A stretch of 39,716 nt of DNA from Roseomonas sp. (GTDB taxonomy: Bacteria > Pseudomonadota > Alphaproteobacteria > Acetobacterales > Acetobacteraceae). Each line of letters begins with the position of its first letter. Within the stretch, counting starts at the first letter, position 1. Positions 32,759 through 39,008 of the stretch are shown piece after piece. The stretch lies in contig JADCFN010000014.1 of assembly GCA_020249505.1 (NCBI GenBank), positions 1-39,716 of the forward strand, in the 5' to 3' direction. The notes beneath the pieces are model-generated. The model ran no database searches, was not told where the DNA came from, and saw only the letters and a program-made list of their open reading frames with translations. The translations under genes were made by a program, and so were the position numbers.

Positions 32759-33616
32759 GTGGCGCAGCGCGGAAAAAGCGGGCTTGGGGGAAAAGGGCAA
32801 AGGCGCAAGCTGCCCCCTCAGACGCGCGCGAAAAACCTGTCCGATCAGGAACAGGAATTGCGCGCTGCCCTTTCCGGGCGCATGCTGCTGCTGCGCTATC
32901 AGCCCATCATCCGCCTGCGCAACGGCCATATCGCGGCTTTGGAGGGGCTGGTGCGCTGGCCGCGCCAGGAAGCGCTACTGCACGCGGGCGCCTTTGTACC
33001 CTTGGCGGAAAAACTTGGGCTTGCGCTCGATCTGACCCACGCCGTGTTGGAACGCGTCGCGCATGATTGGCAGCAGATGCCCTCTCCCAAGGGCGGGCTT
33101 GCCGTAAACATGCCGCTCAGTGTCCTCATGCTGCCGGAAATGCCGGCTCGCCTCGCGGCGACATTGCGCCAGCATGGCAAAAGGCGCGGGCCGCTTTTGC
33201 TGGAACTCACGGAAACCGAGGCCATCCGCGACCCATCGCGCCTGCGCCAAGTGATGATGCGCCTAAAGCGCCTTGGCATTTCAGTACTACTTGATGATGT
33301 GACGCTGGGCGATCATCGCTGGCGGCTTGCGGGCCTGCCCTTTGCCGGGGTCAAGCTCGACCGCAGCCTGATCGAGGCTTTGCCGAACCAGATGCGCGCG
33401 CGGCATTTCCTGCGCCGCATCCTGACCGATTCCCACGCCAAGGGCCGCTATGTGATCGCCGAGGGCGTTGCAAACCCGCTACTCCGCCGCACCACCCGCG
33501 GCCTTGGCGTGGATTTCGCCCAAGGCTTTTTGCTTGGCCAGCCCGAGCCGCCGCAACAGAACCGCGGCGGCCAGACGCGCCTCAGCCCTGCCAGGCGCGG
33601 CGGTAGAGCGCCATAA
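32759..33616 (+). CDS. EAL domain protein (c-di-GMP phosphodiesterase-like)
   Basis: Protein of 285 residues: a basic N-terminal stretch (about 1-35) then an EAL domain. The motifs are mostly kept: EGLVRW (Glu62; EAL reads EGL), Asn117 in AVNMPLS, Glu149 in LELTET, Asp179-Asp180, Lys199 in VKLDRS, Glu235 in IAEGVA and QGFLLGQP. The DDFGTG loop reads DDVTLGD, which may weaken metal binding or dimer control. No sensor, GGDEF or membrane part is present. It may hydrolyse or merely bind c-di-GMP in the cytoplasm. The GTG start is the best I can find but uncertain. The 3' end overlaps the convergent dehydrogenase by 35 bases. Confidence 0.8.
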   Translation: MAQRGKSGLGGKGQRRKLPPQTRAKNLSDQEQELRAALSGRMLLLRYQPIIRLRNGHIAALEGLVRWPRQEALLHAGAFVPLAEKLGLALDLTHAVLERVAHDWQQMPSPKGGLAVNMPLSVLMLPEMPARLAATLRQHGKRRGPLLLELTETEAIRDPSRLRQVMMRLKRLGISVLLDDVTLGDHRWRLAGLPFAGVKLDRSLIEALPNQMRARHFLRRILTDSHAKGRYVIAEGVANPLLRRTTRGLGVDFAQGFLLGQPEPPQQNRGGQTRLSPARRGGRAP

Positions 33617-34751
33617 TCGCCTCTGCATCCGGCACTGCGGGGTTATTGGCCGGGCTGCCGGAAGCCAAGGCCTGCGCTGCCATGGTCGGCAGCAGCCCGT
33701 CCCATTTCGCTGCATCAATGCCGTAAGCCGCCGGGGTAGGCACCGCCAATTCGCGGTTGAGTGCCGAAAGCTCCTCAAGCAGTTTCGCCCCCGCGCTTTG
33801 GTCGCCCTCATCCCGGCCCGCCACGCCAATGGCGCGTGCCGCTTCGGCGTAACGCGGCAGCGCGGCATTGAGCGAATAGGCTGTCACAGCGGGCAGCAGC
33901 ATGGCGTTGGAAAGCCCATGCGGCACATGGAAATGCGCCCCGATCGGGCGCGACATGCCATGCACCAGCGCGACCGAGCTATTGCTGAAGGCAAGCCCCG
34001 CAAGTGTGGCGCCCTTCATCATCGCTTCCCGCGCTGCGGCGTTCGTGGGGTCGTGATAGACAGTCCGCAGATTGGGCCCGATCAGGCGCATGGCGCGCAG
34101 GGCATATTCATCCGATTCCGAATTGGCGCGACGAGACACCAAGGCTTCCAGCGCATGGGTCAGGCTATCAATGCCCGTATCGGCGGTGGTGCGCGGCGGC
34201 ACGCTGAAGGTCAGTTCGTAATCCACAATCGCGGCCAAGGGCAGCGCGCCCAGCCCCGCGATCAGCATCTTCTCATCGGTTTCGGTATCGGTGATCACGG
34301 TGAAGCGCGTCGCCTCACTGCCCGTGCCGGCCGTGGTGGGGATGCAGATCACCGGCAGCGCGGCCTTATTCGCCTGGGCCGGCACCTTGAAGTCGCGCAT
34401 TTTCGCACCCGCTGGTGCGGCGGCCAGGATGGTCATGGCCTTGGCGGTATCCATCGGGCTCCCGCCGCCAAAACCGATCAGGCAATCATAATCGTGCCCC
34501 TGCATGGCAGCGACGCCAGTGGCGATCACGGTATCGGTCGGGTCCGGCACGGTATCGCTGAAAACGCCGTAGCTGATCCCAGCCGCCTTCAAGGGGGCGA
34601 GCAGTTTTTCGACCGTGCCGGAAGACATCATCCAGGGATCGGTCACGACCAGCGGGCGCGACAGCCCCAGCTGCGCCAGCACCGCCGCCGCCTGACCGAT
34701 AGACCCCCCGCCCATCACAAGCAGGCGGGGTGAGACGAAGGAGGTCGTCAC
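33582..34751 (-). CDS. Iron-containing alcohol dehydrogenase
   Basis: Group III alcohol dehydrogenase of 389 residues. NAD-binding GFGGGSPMDTAKA is near 95-107 and PTTAGTGSEAT near 140. Metal ligands are the Asp in TADTGID and His residues in SLTHALEA, ALVHGMSRPIGAHFHVPHG. It oxidises or reduces an alcohol/aldehyde pair with NAD. The GTG start overlaps the upstream dehydrogenase stop as GTGA. It is last in the Bug-RraA-thioesterase-HIBADH-ADH run. A 35-base tail overlap with the EAL gene leaves no room for a separate terminator. Confidence 0.93.
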   Translation of the reverse strand: MTTSFVSPRLLVMGGGSIGQAAAVLAQLGLSRPLVVTDPWMMSSGTVEKLLAPLKAAGISYGVFSDTVPDPTDTVIATGVAAMQGHDYDCLIGFGGGSPMDTAKAMTILAAAPAGAKMRDFKVPAQANKAALPVICIPTTAGTGSEATRFTVITDTETDEKMLIAGLGALPLAAIVDYELTFSVPPRTTADTGIDSLTHALEALVSRRANSESDEYALRAMRLIGPNLRTVYHDPTNAAAREAMMKGATLAGLAFSNSSVALVHGMSRPIGAHFHVPHGLSNAMLLPAVTAYSLNAALPRYAEAARAIGVAGRDEGDQSAGAKLLEELSALNRELAVPTPAAYGIDAAKWDGLLPTMAAQALASGSPANNPAVPDAEAIMALYRRAWQG

Positions 34752-35635
34752 TTAACACCCCCTTCGCGGATCATATTGATGATGCCGGAGAAATCCTTAT
34801 CGCCACCGCCGCGTTCCAGATATTGCCGGAACAGGGACAAGGCATGCGCCCCGATGGGTGACGCCGTGCCGACCTGTTCCACCGCTTCCTGCGCCAGCCC
34901 CAAATCCTTCGCCATCAATGCCGCTGCAAAGCCGGGCTTGTAATCGCGATTGGCAGGGCTGGCGGGCACTGGCCCAGGAACCGGGCAATAGCTGGACAGC
35001 GCCCAGGAATTGCTGGTGGAGGTGGAGCAGACATCGAACAGCGCCTGATGCGAAAGCCCGAGTTTTTCCGCCAGAACAAAGGCTTCCGAGGTGACAATCA
35101 TGGTCGCCGCCAGCATCATGTTATTGCAGAGCTTAACACCCTGCCCCGCGCCAGCGACACCGCAATGAATGACATTGCGCCCCATCTGCTTCAGGATCGG
35201 CTCGGCGCGCGCGAAATGCTCTGGCGTGCCACCCACCATGAAAGTCAGCGTGCCGGCTTCCGCCCCCATGGTTCCGCCGGAGACCGGCGCATCCACAAAG
35301 GCGCGGCCGGATTTCGCGGCAACATCGCGCGCGGTGGCGACATCAATGGTGGAGCAATCAATCAGCAGCGCATCGGGCGCGCTCGCCGCCGCCATGCCAC
35401 CGGCGCCAAGCCAGGCATCACGCACATGCTGGCCCGCAGGCAGCATGGTGATGACATATTCGGCGCCGCGTGCCGCATCGGCGGCATTGGCCGCCGCTTT
35501 CGCGCCATTCGGCGTGACCGAGGCAATGGCGGCAGGCACCAGATCATAGACCGAGACCTCATGCCCGGCCTTGAGCAGGTTGCGCACCATATGCGCGCCC
35601 ATATTGCCAAGACCAACAAAGCCGATACGTGCCAT
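34748..35635 (-). CDS. 3-hydroxyisobutyrate dehydrogenase family protein
   Basis: Beta-hydroxyacid dehydrogenase of 295 residues. The N-terminal Rossmann motif IGFVGLGNMGAHMVRNL carries the family signature. The substrate loop DAPVSGGTMGAEAGTLTFMVGG follows near residue 118, with catalytic Lys in GVKLCNNMM near 168. It matches MmsB closely (valine catabolism), but GarR/Hgd-type enzymes share these motifs. AGGAAAGGA precedes ATG 35635. Downstream is an Fe-ADH with overlapping start and upstream a hotdog thioesterase. Together these suggest a CoA-ester to hydroxyacid to semialdehyde route. Confidence 0.92.
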   Translation of the reverse strand: MARIGFVGLGNMGAHMVRNLLKAGHEVSVYDLVPAAIASVTPNGAKAAANAADAARGAEYVITMLPAGQHVRDAWLGAGGMAAASAPDALLIDCSTIDVATARDVAAKSGRAFVDAPVSGGTMGAEAGTLTFMVGGTPEHFARAEPILKQMGRNVIHCGVAGAGQGVKLCNNMMLAATMIVTSEAFVLAEKLGLSHQALFDVCSTSTSNSWALSSYCPVPGPVPASPANRDYKPGFAAALMAKDLGLAQEAVEQVGTASPIGAHALSLFRQYLERGGGDKDFSGIINMIREGGVK

Positions 35636-35658
35636 GGCTTGCTTCCTTTCCTGCAAAT

Positions 35659-36108
35659 TCAACGGGTTTTTGGTTTGAGCGAGAGCCGCTTGGGCGCTTC
35701 GCCAGATCGGCGCGCCGCCAAGCGCGCCAGGATATCTTGCGGCCAGGGCGCCACGCGCCGCTTGGTCAGGTCAATGCTGAGGTAAAGAACCTCATTTTCC
35801 GCGACCTGCCAGCCTTCTTTGGCATGGAACATGAGATGTCGGCAGAGCAGGCGCTTATCGTCAAAATCCAGGACGATGCTTTCACAGGCGAGCGGCGCGC
35901 CTTCGCGCACTTCGCGGATATAGGCCTGCCAGGATTCAGCGGCGAAAGTGCCCATGCCGCGTGCACGATACTCAGGCCCGAAGCCAAGATCGAGCCACTG
36001 CACATCGCAGGCCATGTCAAAGACCACAAGGTAATAGGCCAGATTCATATGGCCGTAGTGATCCACCCATGCGGGCTTCACCTCGGTCAGGATCGGGCGT
36101 TCTGTCAT
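35659..36108 (-). CDS. Hotdog-fold acyl-CoA thioesterase
   Basis: Protein of 149 residues of the 4HBT hotdog group. The signature WVDHYGHMNLAYYL carries the active-site Asp/His region near 15-28. Such enzymes release free acid from acyl-CoA; the betainyl-CoA thioesterases of carnitine pathways share this motif. No Shine-Dalgarno is clear before ATG 36108, and a strong hairpin lies just upstream, so its expression may be limited by mRNA structure. It is followed after 23 bases by the 3-hydroxyisobutyrate dehydrogenase gene. Confidence 0.88.
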   Translation of the reverse strand: MTERPILTEVKPAWVDHYGHMNLAYYLVVFDMACDVQWLDLGFGPEYRARGMGTFAAESWQAYIREVREGAPLACESIVLDFDDKRLLCRHLMFHAKEGWQVAENEVLYLSIDLTKRRVAPWPQDILARLAARRSGEAPKRLSLKPKTR

Positions 36109-36121
36109 GCGCGGTGAAGAT

Positions 36122-36141
36122 GGGGGCGGTTGCCCGCCCCC
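36122..36141 (-). terminator. Strong GC hairpin inside the RraA operon
   Basis: An 8-pair perfect stem, GGGGGCGG/CCGCCCCC with a four-base loop, lies between the RraA-like stop and the thioesterase start. Without a T-run it is either a partial terminator, lowering expression of the last three genes, or an mRNA 3'-end stabiliser. Confidence 0.55.
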
Positions 36142-36148
36142 GTCCCAA

Positions 36149-36856
36149 TCAGTGGATGTCTTCGGATTTCGCCAGCGCTTCGCGCAGCTTCGCGATATTG
36201 AAGCCAGGGGCGCGCGCCATATCCAGGATCACCGCTTCCTTCCGCGCACCAAGATCAATCGCGGCGGGGATTTTCGTCACCACATCATGCGGGATCACCA
36301 CCGCGCCGTGATGGTCCGCATGGATCACATCATCATGGGATACCTGCATGCCATGGATAGTGACCTCACACTTCAGCGCCACGATATGCACGTATGAATG
36401 CGAGGGATTGACCACCCCGGCAATGCCCTGAAAGCCCGGTGCGAACATCTCAAGGTCACGCACCGAGCCATTCGTGACAACGCCAAGCGCGCCAAGGCCC
36501 TTATGCACGGCGCTATTCACTTCGCCCCAAAAGGCGCCAACGCCGGGGGTGTCATCCAAATCCTGCAAGCAGACAATCGTCGGCAGCGAGGCATCGGCGA
36601 CATATTCATACCAGCCGATCCGCATGGCCTTATCGGCATCCTTGCTGCGGCCAGAGGGATAAGCCGCGCGCTGCGTGCCGGTGCGCGCCAAGCCGCAAAT
36701 CGGGGGGAGTTTCCGATCCACCGCCACAAAGGGGCGCACGGTGAAGCCATAATTGCGCCGATGGGGTGCGACGACTTCCAGCGCATTGCAGATGGTGGGC
36801 GTGTCCCAATTGCGCAGCGCTTCAAGATCGGCGGCGGTAAAGGGGTATTTGCTCAT
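36149..36856 (-). CDS. RraA-like / HMG aldolase family protein
   Basis: Protein of 235 residues of the RraA family, which includes 4-hydroxy-4-methyl-2-oxoglutarate/CHA aldolases and oxaloacetate decarboxylases. The active-site loop is GVVTNGSVRD (125-134): the pyruvate- and metal-binding Arg133-Asp134 pair is present. The usual Asp before the Gly (DG) is Asn129. GGAGGAAA is well placed before the ATG. It follows the third Bug gene and precedes the thioesterase and dehydrogenases, so aldol cleavage of a hydroxy-oxo acid is plausible. RNase E inhibition, known for E. coli RraA, is unlikely for this branch. Confidence 0.87.
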   Translation of the reverse strand: MSKYPFTAADLEALRNWDTPTICNALEVVAPHRRNYGFTVRPFVAVDRKLPPICGLARTGTQRAAYPSGRSKDADKAMRIGWYEYVADASLPTIVCLQDLDDTPGVGAFWGEVNSAVHKGLGALGVVTNGSVRDLEMFAPGFQGIAGVVNPSHSYVHIVALKCEVTIHGMQVSHDDVIHADHHGAVVIPHDVVTKIPAAIDLGARKEAVILDMARAPGFNIAKLREALAKSEDIH

Positions 36857-36893
36857 GTGTCTGTTTCCTCCAGGGGCGCAGCATCGGGCGAGT

Positions 36894-36914
36894 GGGGCTT
36901 TCGGTCAAACCCCC
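36894..36914 (-). terminator. Weak hairpin downstream of the third Bug gene
   Basis: GGGG-c-TTT (36894-36901) can pair with AAA-c-CCCC (36907-36914) with one central mismatch. It lies in the 77-base gap after the Bug stop, before RraA. Bug genes are often expressed more than the enzymes behind them, so a partial terminator would fit. Confidence 0.35.
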
Positions 36915-36933
36915 TTAACGCTGGCAAGCCCCT

Positions 36934-37923
36934 TTAATCCGCCTGCACATTCCCCTGGCGCACTACCTCCAACCAGCGCTGGCGTTCGCGCGTGACGAGC
37001 GCGGCGTAATCGGCGGGCGGGCCGCCGCGCGGGGTGGTGCCACGCGCGGCCAATTGCTGGCGCACCGCCGGGTCATTCAGCGCGGCCTGCGCCACTTCCG
37101 CCATACGCGCCACCACGGCGTCTGATGCCGATTTATGCGCATGCAGGCCGAACCAGGCTTCAGCCTCAAACCCCACCAGGTTGAACTCGGCACCCAGTTC
37201 CGAGACCGCCGGCACATTGGGCAGATCGGGCAGGCGTTCGCGGGACGTCACGGCCAGCGCGACCACATTGCCATTCTGGATTTGCGGCAGCGCAGTCGGC
37301 AGATTGTCAATCAGGCTATCCACCTCGCCGCCGATCACCGCGGTCATGGCCGGGCCGGCACCGCGATAGGGCACATGCTGCACGCGCACGCCGGCCAACT
37401 GGTTGATCAACTCCCCGGTCAGATGCGTCGAGGTACCATTGCCGGCAGAGGCGAAATTGCGTTCACCCGGCTTCGCCTTGGCATCACGCAGAAAGGCGCG
37501 GAGATCACCGCCCGGCACGCGGCGCGGATTGGCGACCCAGACATTCGGCACGGTCACAACCAACGTCACGGCACGGAAATCCGCTTCCGGATCATAGGCA
37601 AGGTTGCGGAACAGCGCCGGGCCAATGGCGTGGGAAGCAATCTGGCTTAGGAACAGCGCATGATCATCCGCTTCGCGCGCAAAGCGCCCGGCGGCCAGCG
37701 TGCTGCCAGCACCCGGCTGGTTTTCCACGACAACATTACGCCCGAGCCTGTCCCGCATGGCGGCTGCGATCAGCCGCGCCACCACATCCGTGGTACCCCC
37801 CGGCGGGAAGGGGCAGACCAGGCGCAAATCCTTATTCGGCCAGGTGGCCTGCGCGCGGAGTGCCGGGGCAGCAAGCAGCCCGGCAGCGGCAGCGATGGTG
37901 GTACGGCGTGTGACACGGTTCAT
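36934..37923 (-). CDS. Bug/TctC family periplasmic substrate-binding protein (third)
   Basis: Protein of 329 residues with a twin-arginine signal (VTRRTTIAAAAGLLAAPA, cleavage near LRAQA, residue 26). Bug signatures: WPNKDLRLVCPFPPGGTTDV, VVENQPGAGSTLAAG, FASAGNGTSTHLTGEL and HVPYRGAGPAMTAVIGGEVD. It heads a minus-strand operon with RraA, thioesterase and two dehydrogenases, which gives the likely fate of its ligand, a branched hydroxy- or oxo-acid. The divergent neighbour is the nitrile hydratase gene; shared control across the 83-base gap is possible. No membrane TctAB components are present. Confidence 0.92.
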   Translation of the reverse strand: MNRVTRRTTIAAAAGLLAAPALRAQATWPNKDLRLVCPFPPGGTTDVVARLIAAAMRDRLGRNVVVENQPGAGSTLAAGRFAREADDHALFLSQIASHAIGPALFRNLAYDPEADFRAVTLVVTVPNVWVANPRRVPGGDLRAFLRDAKAKPGERNFASAGNGTSTHLTGELINQLAGVRVQHVPYRGAGPAMTAVIGGEVDSLIDNLPTALPQIQNGNVVALAVTSRERLPDLPNVPAVSELGAEFNLVGFEAEAWFGLHAHKSASDAVVARMAEVAQAALNDPAVRQQLAARGTTPRGGPPADYAALVTRERQRWLEVVRQGNVQAD

Positions 37924-38006: not shown

Positions 38007-39008
38007 ATGACCCAAAAACCCGACAACCTGCCGACCCATGATGTCGCCGGCCGCTTCGCTGCGCCCATTGACCAGACCGCGCATGAACCCGCGCATTGGG
38101 AGAAGGAGGCTGACGCGATCCGCCTGCTGCTGGCGGATAAAGAGCGCCATATCTTCACCACCGATGAAAGCCGGCGCGTGCAGGAAGCGCTCGATGCCGA
38201 AACCTATTGGAAGCTGCCCTATTATGAACGCTGGATTCACGGTTTTTCGAGTCTGCTCAAGGAAAAGGGCGTGCTTCAGGAAGCCGACCTTATCACCGAG
38301 GAAGCGCGGCTGCGCGCCGCTGGGGAAGACAAGGTGGAAGACCCGCCCGGCGGGCATCACCACCACCATCATGATCACGACCACGACCATGACCATGATC
38401 ACCACCCCTATCAGGAAGATGATGATGCGGGGGTTGCCGTGCTATCCCCCCTGCAATTGCGCGGGCGGGCGGTGCGCAATCTGCTGATCGCGCGCGGCAT
38501 TCTGACCGCGGCTGAAATCCGCGCCCAGATTGAGGCGATGGATAGCCGGGGTGAGCATCTCGGCGCGCGGGTTGTGGTGCGCGCCTGGACCGATCCCGGC
38601 TTTGCTGCGCGGCTTGCCGCCGATGCCGGTGCTGCGGTGGAAGAATTGGGCCTGTCGCGTGGGGAGACTGTGCTGACGGCGCTGTTCAATACGCCGGATG
38701 TGCATAATCTGGTCGTTTGCACGCTTTGTTCCTGTTATCCGCGAAGCGTGCTGGGCCGCCCGCCCGCCTGGTACAAAAGCCGCGCCTACCGCGCGCGCGC
38801 AGTGCGCGACCCGCGCGGGGTGCTTGCTGAATTCGGCACGCATTTGCCGGAAGGCACCAGCATTCGCGTGCATGATAGCAATGCGGAGCTACGCTACCTG
38901 GTGGTGCCACGCAGGCCCGCCGGGACGGAAGGCTGGGATGCGGCGAAGCTGGAACAGCTTGTCACGCGCGATGCGATGATTGGGGTGACCGAGGCGCGGG
39001 AGCCTTGA
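38007..39008 (+). CDS. Fused nitrile hydratase: beta-N-like domain, His-rich linker, cobalt-type alpha subunit
   Basis: Protein of 333 residues in three parts. Residues about 25-100 match the beta-subunit N-terminal domain of nitrile hydratase and the equivalent thiocyanate hydrolase subunit (ETYWKLPYYERWIHGFSSLL). Residues 117-133 are almost only His and Asp. Residues 146-333 are a full alpha subunit with the metal site C238-T-L-C241-S-C243; the Thr after the first Cys is the cobalt-type signature. Downstream PPAWYKS, RAVRDPRGVLAEFG and ELRYLVVP are also kept. The enzyme hydrates nitriles to amides. The beta C-terminal half is missing here, and no activator gene lies beside it. The His tract may hold cobalt. 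A eukaryotic fusion with a His-rich joint is known from Monosiga. ATG 38007 is the only sensible start. Confidence 0.9.
   Translation: MTQKPDNLPTHDVAGRFAAPIDQTAHEPAHWEKEADAIRLLLADKERHIFTTDESRRVQEALDAETYWKLPYYERWIHGFSSLLKEKGVLQEADLITEEARLRAAGEDKVEDPPGGHHHHHHDHDHDHDHDHHPYQEDDDAGVAVLSPLQLRGRAVRNLLIARGILTAAEIRAQIEAMDSRGEHLGARVVVRAWTDPGFAARLAADAGAAVEELGLSRGETVLTALFNTPDVHNLVVCTLCSCYPRSVLGRPPAWYKSRAYRARAVRDPRGVLAEFGTHLPEGTSIRVHDSNAELRYLVVPRRPAGTEGWDAAKLEQLVTRDAMIGVTEAREP

Follow-up and report, generated by a model that had tools for sequence, protein, structure and literature searches.

Cobalt-type nitrile hydratases with a beta subunit split into two halves have been described as three-subunit enzymes, such as AnhD-AnhE-AnhA of S. 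canus and the toyocamycin enzyme, which consists of ToyJ and two partners. In the available text of PMC7329996, the S. canus enzyme is described as having no activator gene, and AnhD is reported to serve as a metal chaperone and swapping chaperone; judged by gene order, AnhD is probably the N-terminal half of beta (beta-N). According to the same text, the AnhD-AnhA complex held 0.67 cobalt per protein and showed 0.21% of the AnhDEA activity, and AnhEA showed 4.17% of the activity of complete AnhDEA. Alpha alone also took up cobalt (0.57 held), with an activity of 0. When Holo-AnhDA was added to the apo-enzyme (Apo-AnhDEA), activity was raised to 54% (PMC7329996). In nitrile hydratases, the beta arginines R52 and R157 were reported to bridge the oxidised cysteines (parts of PMC7193024).

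Beta and alpha can also be combined in one chain. The Monosiga nitrile hydratase is a beta-alpha fusion with a His-rich linker, as described in the accessible parts of PMC2603476 and PMC3323583, and an engineered P. putida enzyme likewise carries beta N-terminally to alpha (Xia 2016, PMC4709657, accessible part). The latter is man-made, contains the whole beta subunit and still needs P14K. Prokaryotic fusions were sought by Marron 2012, and the accessible part of that paper reports no true one (PMC3323583). In the open-access literature searched, we found neither a bacterial betaN-alpha fusion nor a paper on nitrile hydratase in Roseomonas, and the words "fusion" and "fused" are absent from the available main text of PMC10098168.

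In the window, which is the whole 39,716-nucleotide stretch of Roseomonas sp. DNA analysed here, a betaN-alpha fusion nitrile hydratase is encoded on the plus strand by an ATG-initiated open reading frame of 333 amino acids (38007..39008), as supported by Pfam, homologues and genomes of the genus. The initial annotation had read this single frame as a beta-N domain, a His/Asp tract and a complete cobalt-type alpha subunit, and the frame, the Pfam matches and the CTLCSC motif confirm this. It had placed beta-N at residues 25-100; the identity of the domain was correct and its limits were slightly short, since Pfam NHase_beta_N covers residues 11-105 (38037..38321, plus strand; E 8e-18, 65 bits versus a cut-off of 21.5). 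Within this domain, Arg56 (38172..38174, plus strand) aligns with betaArg52 of P. putida, the P. putida position being counted by hand. The His/Asp tract at residues 117-133 (38355..38405, plus strand) contains 12 His and 5 Asp. It is followed by the alpha domain at residues 150-328 (38454..38990, plus strand; Pfam NHase_alpha, E 1.1e-76, 256.7 bits, far above the cut-off), in which the cobalt-type metal motif CTLCSC occupies residues 238-243 (38718..38735, plus strand) in invariant alignment columns. Arg56 and the catalytic columns were invariant in 59 of 59 aligned fusions. Structure prediction for the single chain gave a confident fold (pLDDT 86.6), with residues 113-137, the region of the tract, disordered in the model (pLDDT <50).

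On TIGR01323, the NCBIfam alpha equivalog, the fusion reached 244.7 bits, just below the cut-off of 249.85, and the split alpha that this genome also encodes was likewise below it (238.4 bits). On TIGR03888, which models the complete beta chain, the score of 56.3 bits against a cut-off of 152.2 corresponds to the beta-N half only; the score on the accessory model TIGR03889 was 12.5 bits, so the protein scores as beta and not as accessory protein. Like the three-subunit enzymes, the system has a split beta, a cobalt-type alpha and no activator seen among the PF21006 matches of the genome, but here a single chain comprises both beta-N and alpha, and beta-C is encoded elsewhere. Thiocyanate hydrolase also has beta in two halves and a cobalt-type, alpha-like gamma, and its chains 2dd4_C and 2dd4_B match fusion residues 121-328 and 10-97, respectively. 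These are part of a set of three separate chains, however, and the fusion remained below the cut-off of TIGR03887 (thiocyanate hydrolase gamma; 184.2 versus 291.45 bits). With the Monosiga protein the fusion shares a beta part that lies N-terminal to alpha and a His-rich linker, but the whole beta is fused there and only beta-N here; the proposal that this is a different permutation, with no beta-C in the chain, was thus borne out.

The window contains no beta-C, and no other nitrile hydratase gene was found in it near the fusion. Neighbouring genes were named only where Pfam assigned them, as a number of fusions and beta-C genes escaped the simple gene caller, which also produced spurious long frames where the DNA is GC-rich. 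On the minus strand and running away from the fusion, positions 33582-37923 of the window encode a TctC receptor, an RraA-like protein, a 4HBT thioesterase, a protein of the 3-hydroxyisobutyrate-dehydrogenase type and an iron alcohol dehydrogenase (Pfam), perhaps a small-acid catabolic set.

The fusion is a real, conserved architecture within the nitrile hydratases, a further variant of this family. It was present in 16 of the 27 same-genus genomes searched (23, including its own, plus 4 more), two of these fusions (G009 and G048) being cut by a contig end. Full-length versions with 93-97% identity were found in six other genomes of the genus and versions with 72-76% identity in five more; the truncated G009 fusion is 95% identical. 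The 11 genomes lacking the fusion all keep a split alpha and beta-C. Among the best 120 of 8000 scored homologues, 93 contain both Pfam domains, and the same domain order, which the initial annotation had proposed to look for in related genomes, was found in the genus and in other lineages. In their sources, such proteins among the best 120 of 8000 are mostly named "nitrile hydratase" or "nitrile hydratase subunit alpha"; with such naming, searches of gene neighbourhoods for complete enzymes could miss fusions. In one 310-aa protein (P0089), PF01048 is combined with a partial alpha domain of 97% identity, perhaps owing to a chimeric contig.

A beta-C gene is present elsewhere in the genome from which the window comes (4.06 Mb, 98 contigs, 99.3% complete). 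A single PF02211 (beta-C) match exceeded the cut-off; it lies on contig C21 in a compact operon (L007, 8064-9245) encoding beta-N (97 aa), beta-C (102 aa) and alpha (193 aa). As three separate chains, these products fall under the definition of a split-beta (three-subunit) nitrile hydratase, and the fusion does not. A second PF02211 match, on contig C68, was below the cut-off and at chance level (12.5 bits, E 0.57). The C21 beta-C keeps a His-x-Arg motif, H32 and R34 aligning with P. putida positions 147 and 149 (hand-counted). Hence the earlier claim that the protein has no beta-C partner is right for the locus and wrong for the genome, where the suggested search for a separate beta-C frame yielded the C21 gene. 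The split alpha of C21 additionally exceeds the cut-off of an NHLP leader-peptide family (62.5 versus 50.9 bits).

Because the contig of the window stops 708 bases after the fusion gene, only part of the region downstream of this copy could be read. A beta-C hidden beside the fusion was considered and rejected for the genus: in 16 of 16 same-genus fusion genomes, beta-C is located beside the split alpha and never beside the fusion. Since beta-C was found in 34 of 35 genomes of the genus, with or without a fusion, co-occurrence within the genus is weak evidence of a link between the two.

A beta-C match over the cut-off was detected in 32 of the 33 fusion genomes tested, comprising the 16 of the genus, G056, G099, G156, G158, G181, G182, G218 and G697, and, as others, G327, G337, G468, G565, G693, G694, G695, G696 and G328 (the genome of L090 was left out). 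The exception, G328 (SAR116, locus L140), has a fusion and no beta-C was found in its 1.7-Mb assembly, the completeness of which is not established. A contig scan, in which at least 593 stretches matched, left 80 loci, nine of them with a fusion. Directly after four of these nine fusions lies a free beta-C gene: L098 (MarineAlpha3_Bin7), L137 and L157 (both Rhodobiaceae) and L166 (Gammaproteobacteria TMED78), all presumed marine. The four corresponding genomes (G693-G696) each have one beta-N, contained in the fusion, and one beta-C, over the cut-off. The position of beta-C directly behind the fusion in four genomes indicates that the fusion and the free beta-C can constitute a two-gene unit. 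In the other 29 of the 33 genomes, no beta-C was seen beside the fusion.

The most informative genome was G182, a natural gene-removal experiment and the single genome on which the case of an orphan beta-C is based. It is a single 3.37-Mb contig from the same family as the organism of the window. Its fusion gene (2,520,022-2,520,993) holds the only alpha and the only beta-N found in the genome, and its sole beta-C (205,159-205,449) lies apart from it. The congeners G218 and G697 each have a fusion and a split operon. In G218, an amidase gene is followed in the operon region by beta-N, beta-C, alpha and the gene of an ABC binding protein, an arrangement syntenic in G697, and the flanks of the G182 beta-C are collinear with those of the G218 operon at approximately 80% DNA identity. 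Remnants of the lost partners are recognizable in G182 as about 95 bases near the start of beta-N and about 100 bases near the end of alpha (best E-values 8e-8 and 3e-13). Between these stubs, beta-C is open over 101 codons, with a GTG start that we infer.

Between G182 and G218, the pN/pS ratio was 0.27 for beta-C, compared to 0.88 over 30 codons of the alpha stub and 0.57 over 20 codons of the beta-N stub. The flanking genes gave 0.18 (binding protein) and 0.26 (amidase). Thus, the G182 beta-C has remained about as constrained as the functional genes that flank it, during the decay of beta-N and alpha in the same operon. Between G218 and G697, the ratios were 0.10 for beta-C, 0.25 for the same stretch of alpha and 0.08 for the binding protein, so the G182 beta-C, at 0.27, may be slightly relaxed. 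Its open frame alone is weak evidence, because about 20% of frames in a simulation of 61 random substitutions were still open. The G182 fusion shares 4 bases with an overlapping amidase gene, and a second amidase gene is found immediately upstream of the orphan beta-C, an arrangement that fits a conversion of nitrile to amide to acid. Together, the C21 gene, the fusion genomes with beta-C, the marine two-gene units and G182 indicate that, as the initial annotation had anticipated, a separate beta-C comes from elsewhere. At the sequence level, a supply of beta-C to the fusion from another gene is well supported.

We consider it likely that the fusion is a covalent cobalt-loading betaN-alpha complex of a three-subunit nitrile hydratase, which is completed by beta-C in trans. 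The beta-N half would be joined covalently to a cobalt-type alpha, with the His-rich extension of alpha as the linker, making the fusion a permanent form of the cobalt-accepting beta-N/alpha complex. Separately made beta-C would then join the fusion to give the active hydratase and would bring the second arginine that holds the oxidised cysteines. Since the fusion keeps Arg56 and the free beta-C keeps R34, the fusion resembles a loading complex that has become permanent and whose active site beta-C would complete from outside. In the genome of the window, beta-C would be drawn from the split betaN-betaC-alpha operon on the other contig, and the product amide would probably be handed to amidases such as those encoded next to the G182 fusion. 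The physical pairing of fusion and beta-C, the activity, the substrate and the route of cobalt loading are what we infer. With the proposed cobalt-loading intermediate in one chain, the role of beta-N in loading and that of beta-C in activity become separately testable. A broader reading, which we offer tentatively, is that beta-C is an independent, shareable subunit, that beta-N and alpha were repeatedly fused as a self-loading unit, and that one beta-C serves a fused and a split enzyme. If true, a cell would obtain two hydratases from one shared beta-C.

Other explanations were weighed against this model. The fusion could work alone, its alpha being catalytic without beta-C like ToyJ, and its beta-N aiding only folding and metal loading. 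The separation of beta-C from most fusions and the G328 genome would agree with this, as would the reported activity of ToyJ, an alpha subunit on its own (Nelp 2014, as told in the available text of PMC7329996). Against it, G182 retains an open and constrained beta-C amid a decayed operon, beta-C is kept directly behind the fusion in the four marine genomes, and the S. canus alpha alone and betaN-alpha complex showed no activity and 0.21%, respectively; we regard a self-sufficient fusion as unlikely. Alternatively, the fusion could mainly be a donor of cobalt-loaded alpha or a maturation factor for the split enzyme, comparable to AnhD2A or alpha(P14K)2. Beta-N does resemble P14K-type proteins (the accessory protein of L083 scores 75.9 bits on TIGR03889 and 38 on TIGR03888), Holo-AnhDA activates Apo-AnhDEA in S. 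canus, and members of the genus carry the fusion alongside a split operon. However, a fused alpha would be unable to swap without its beta-N, the TIGR scores of the fusion point to beta rather than to an accessory protein, no other alpha was found in G182 that it could serve, and the 11 genomes of the genus that lack the fusion still have split alpha and beta-C. This makes a donor function very unlikely. Finally, a gene-model artefact or a decaying pseudogene, in which beta-N and alpha share a frame by chance after loss of beta-C, might be suspected from a window with a fusion, no beta-C and no other nitrile hydratase gene nearby; given full-length frames in six other genomes of the genus at 93-97% identity and in five at 72-76%, catalytic columns that are invariant over 59 proteins and the confident predicted fold, it is hardly credible.

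A further question concerned the His/Asp tract, which had been proposed to act as a built-in cobalt donor in place of an activator. Of 116 distinct fused units, 115 have at least four His within the 45 residues that precede alpha, with a median of 9 His in fused units versus 6 in split-operon alphas, and a search of the genome with PF21006 at E <=1 matched only two beta-N domains, so that no P14K-like gene was seen. These points favour a cobalt-donor role of the tract, but the same tract is common in free alphas: among distinct alpha domains, at least four His were present in 95 of 134 from split operons, 13 of 14 next to a whole beta, 28 of 32 alpha-only cases (a class that includes proteins and loci whose neighbourhood was unseen) and the one betaN-alpha unit without beta-C. 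For free alphas, the 45 residues were obtained by extending the open frame upstream, and some of this stretch may be untranslated. As the loci were found with tract-bearing queries, these shares could be overestimates. The P. putida alpha also bears a His-rich extension. Conversely, six fusions from another lineage (L092, L098, L137, L140, L157 and L166) hold only four His in the whole linker, and the His17 linker of Monosiga was stated to be unnecessary for metal incorporation (PMC7193024, section 10). Since the S. canus enzyme is reported to load cobalt without an activator gene, a missing activator requires no new donor. The proposal that the tract replaces an activator is therefore not supported and is unlikely; the tract is best seen as the ordinary His-rich N-terminal extension of alpha, caught as a linker, and it may contribute to a small extent to holding cobalt.

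The origin of the fusions was addressed with a tree built from beta-N and alpha together, with 262 columns and the 102 rows that were left once near-identical ones had been dropped (quick search, SH-aLRT support only). The 26 fusion rows require seven changes, gains and losses not being told apart, and five of these are forced by starred branches. A single origin was rejected in this tree (AU p 1.2e-33). The fusions are located among split-beta units and the whole-beta units form a separate clade; beta-N and alpha of the C21 operon are distant from the fusion, which counts against the model in which the C21 beta-C serves the fusion. An alpha-only tree, to which the AU test was not applied, forces three changes. 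In it, the split alphas of L001, L023 and L170 (genus or family) fall on a long branch inside the fusion clade, but they are outside this clade in the beta-N plus alpha tree, on which we relied; gene conversion or long-branch pull may explain the conflict. As read from the beta-N plus alpha tree, the fusion architecture arose more than once. An industrial enzyme family thereby gains a repeated gene architecture, with beta-N fused to alpha and beta-C in trans.

Additional arrangements were observed among the loci. In G520 (L198, 1474-2460), beta-N and alpha are adjacent with no beta-C between them and form one frame except for a single TAG, possibly a pre-fusion stage; this genome also has a full split operon on another contig (L256). 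Another permutation of the split enzyme, with the operon order betaC-alpha-betaN, was found at L101, L128, L146 and L160, and at L120 (2224-4039) two tandem beta-N domains precede beta-C and alpha.
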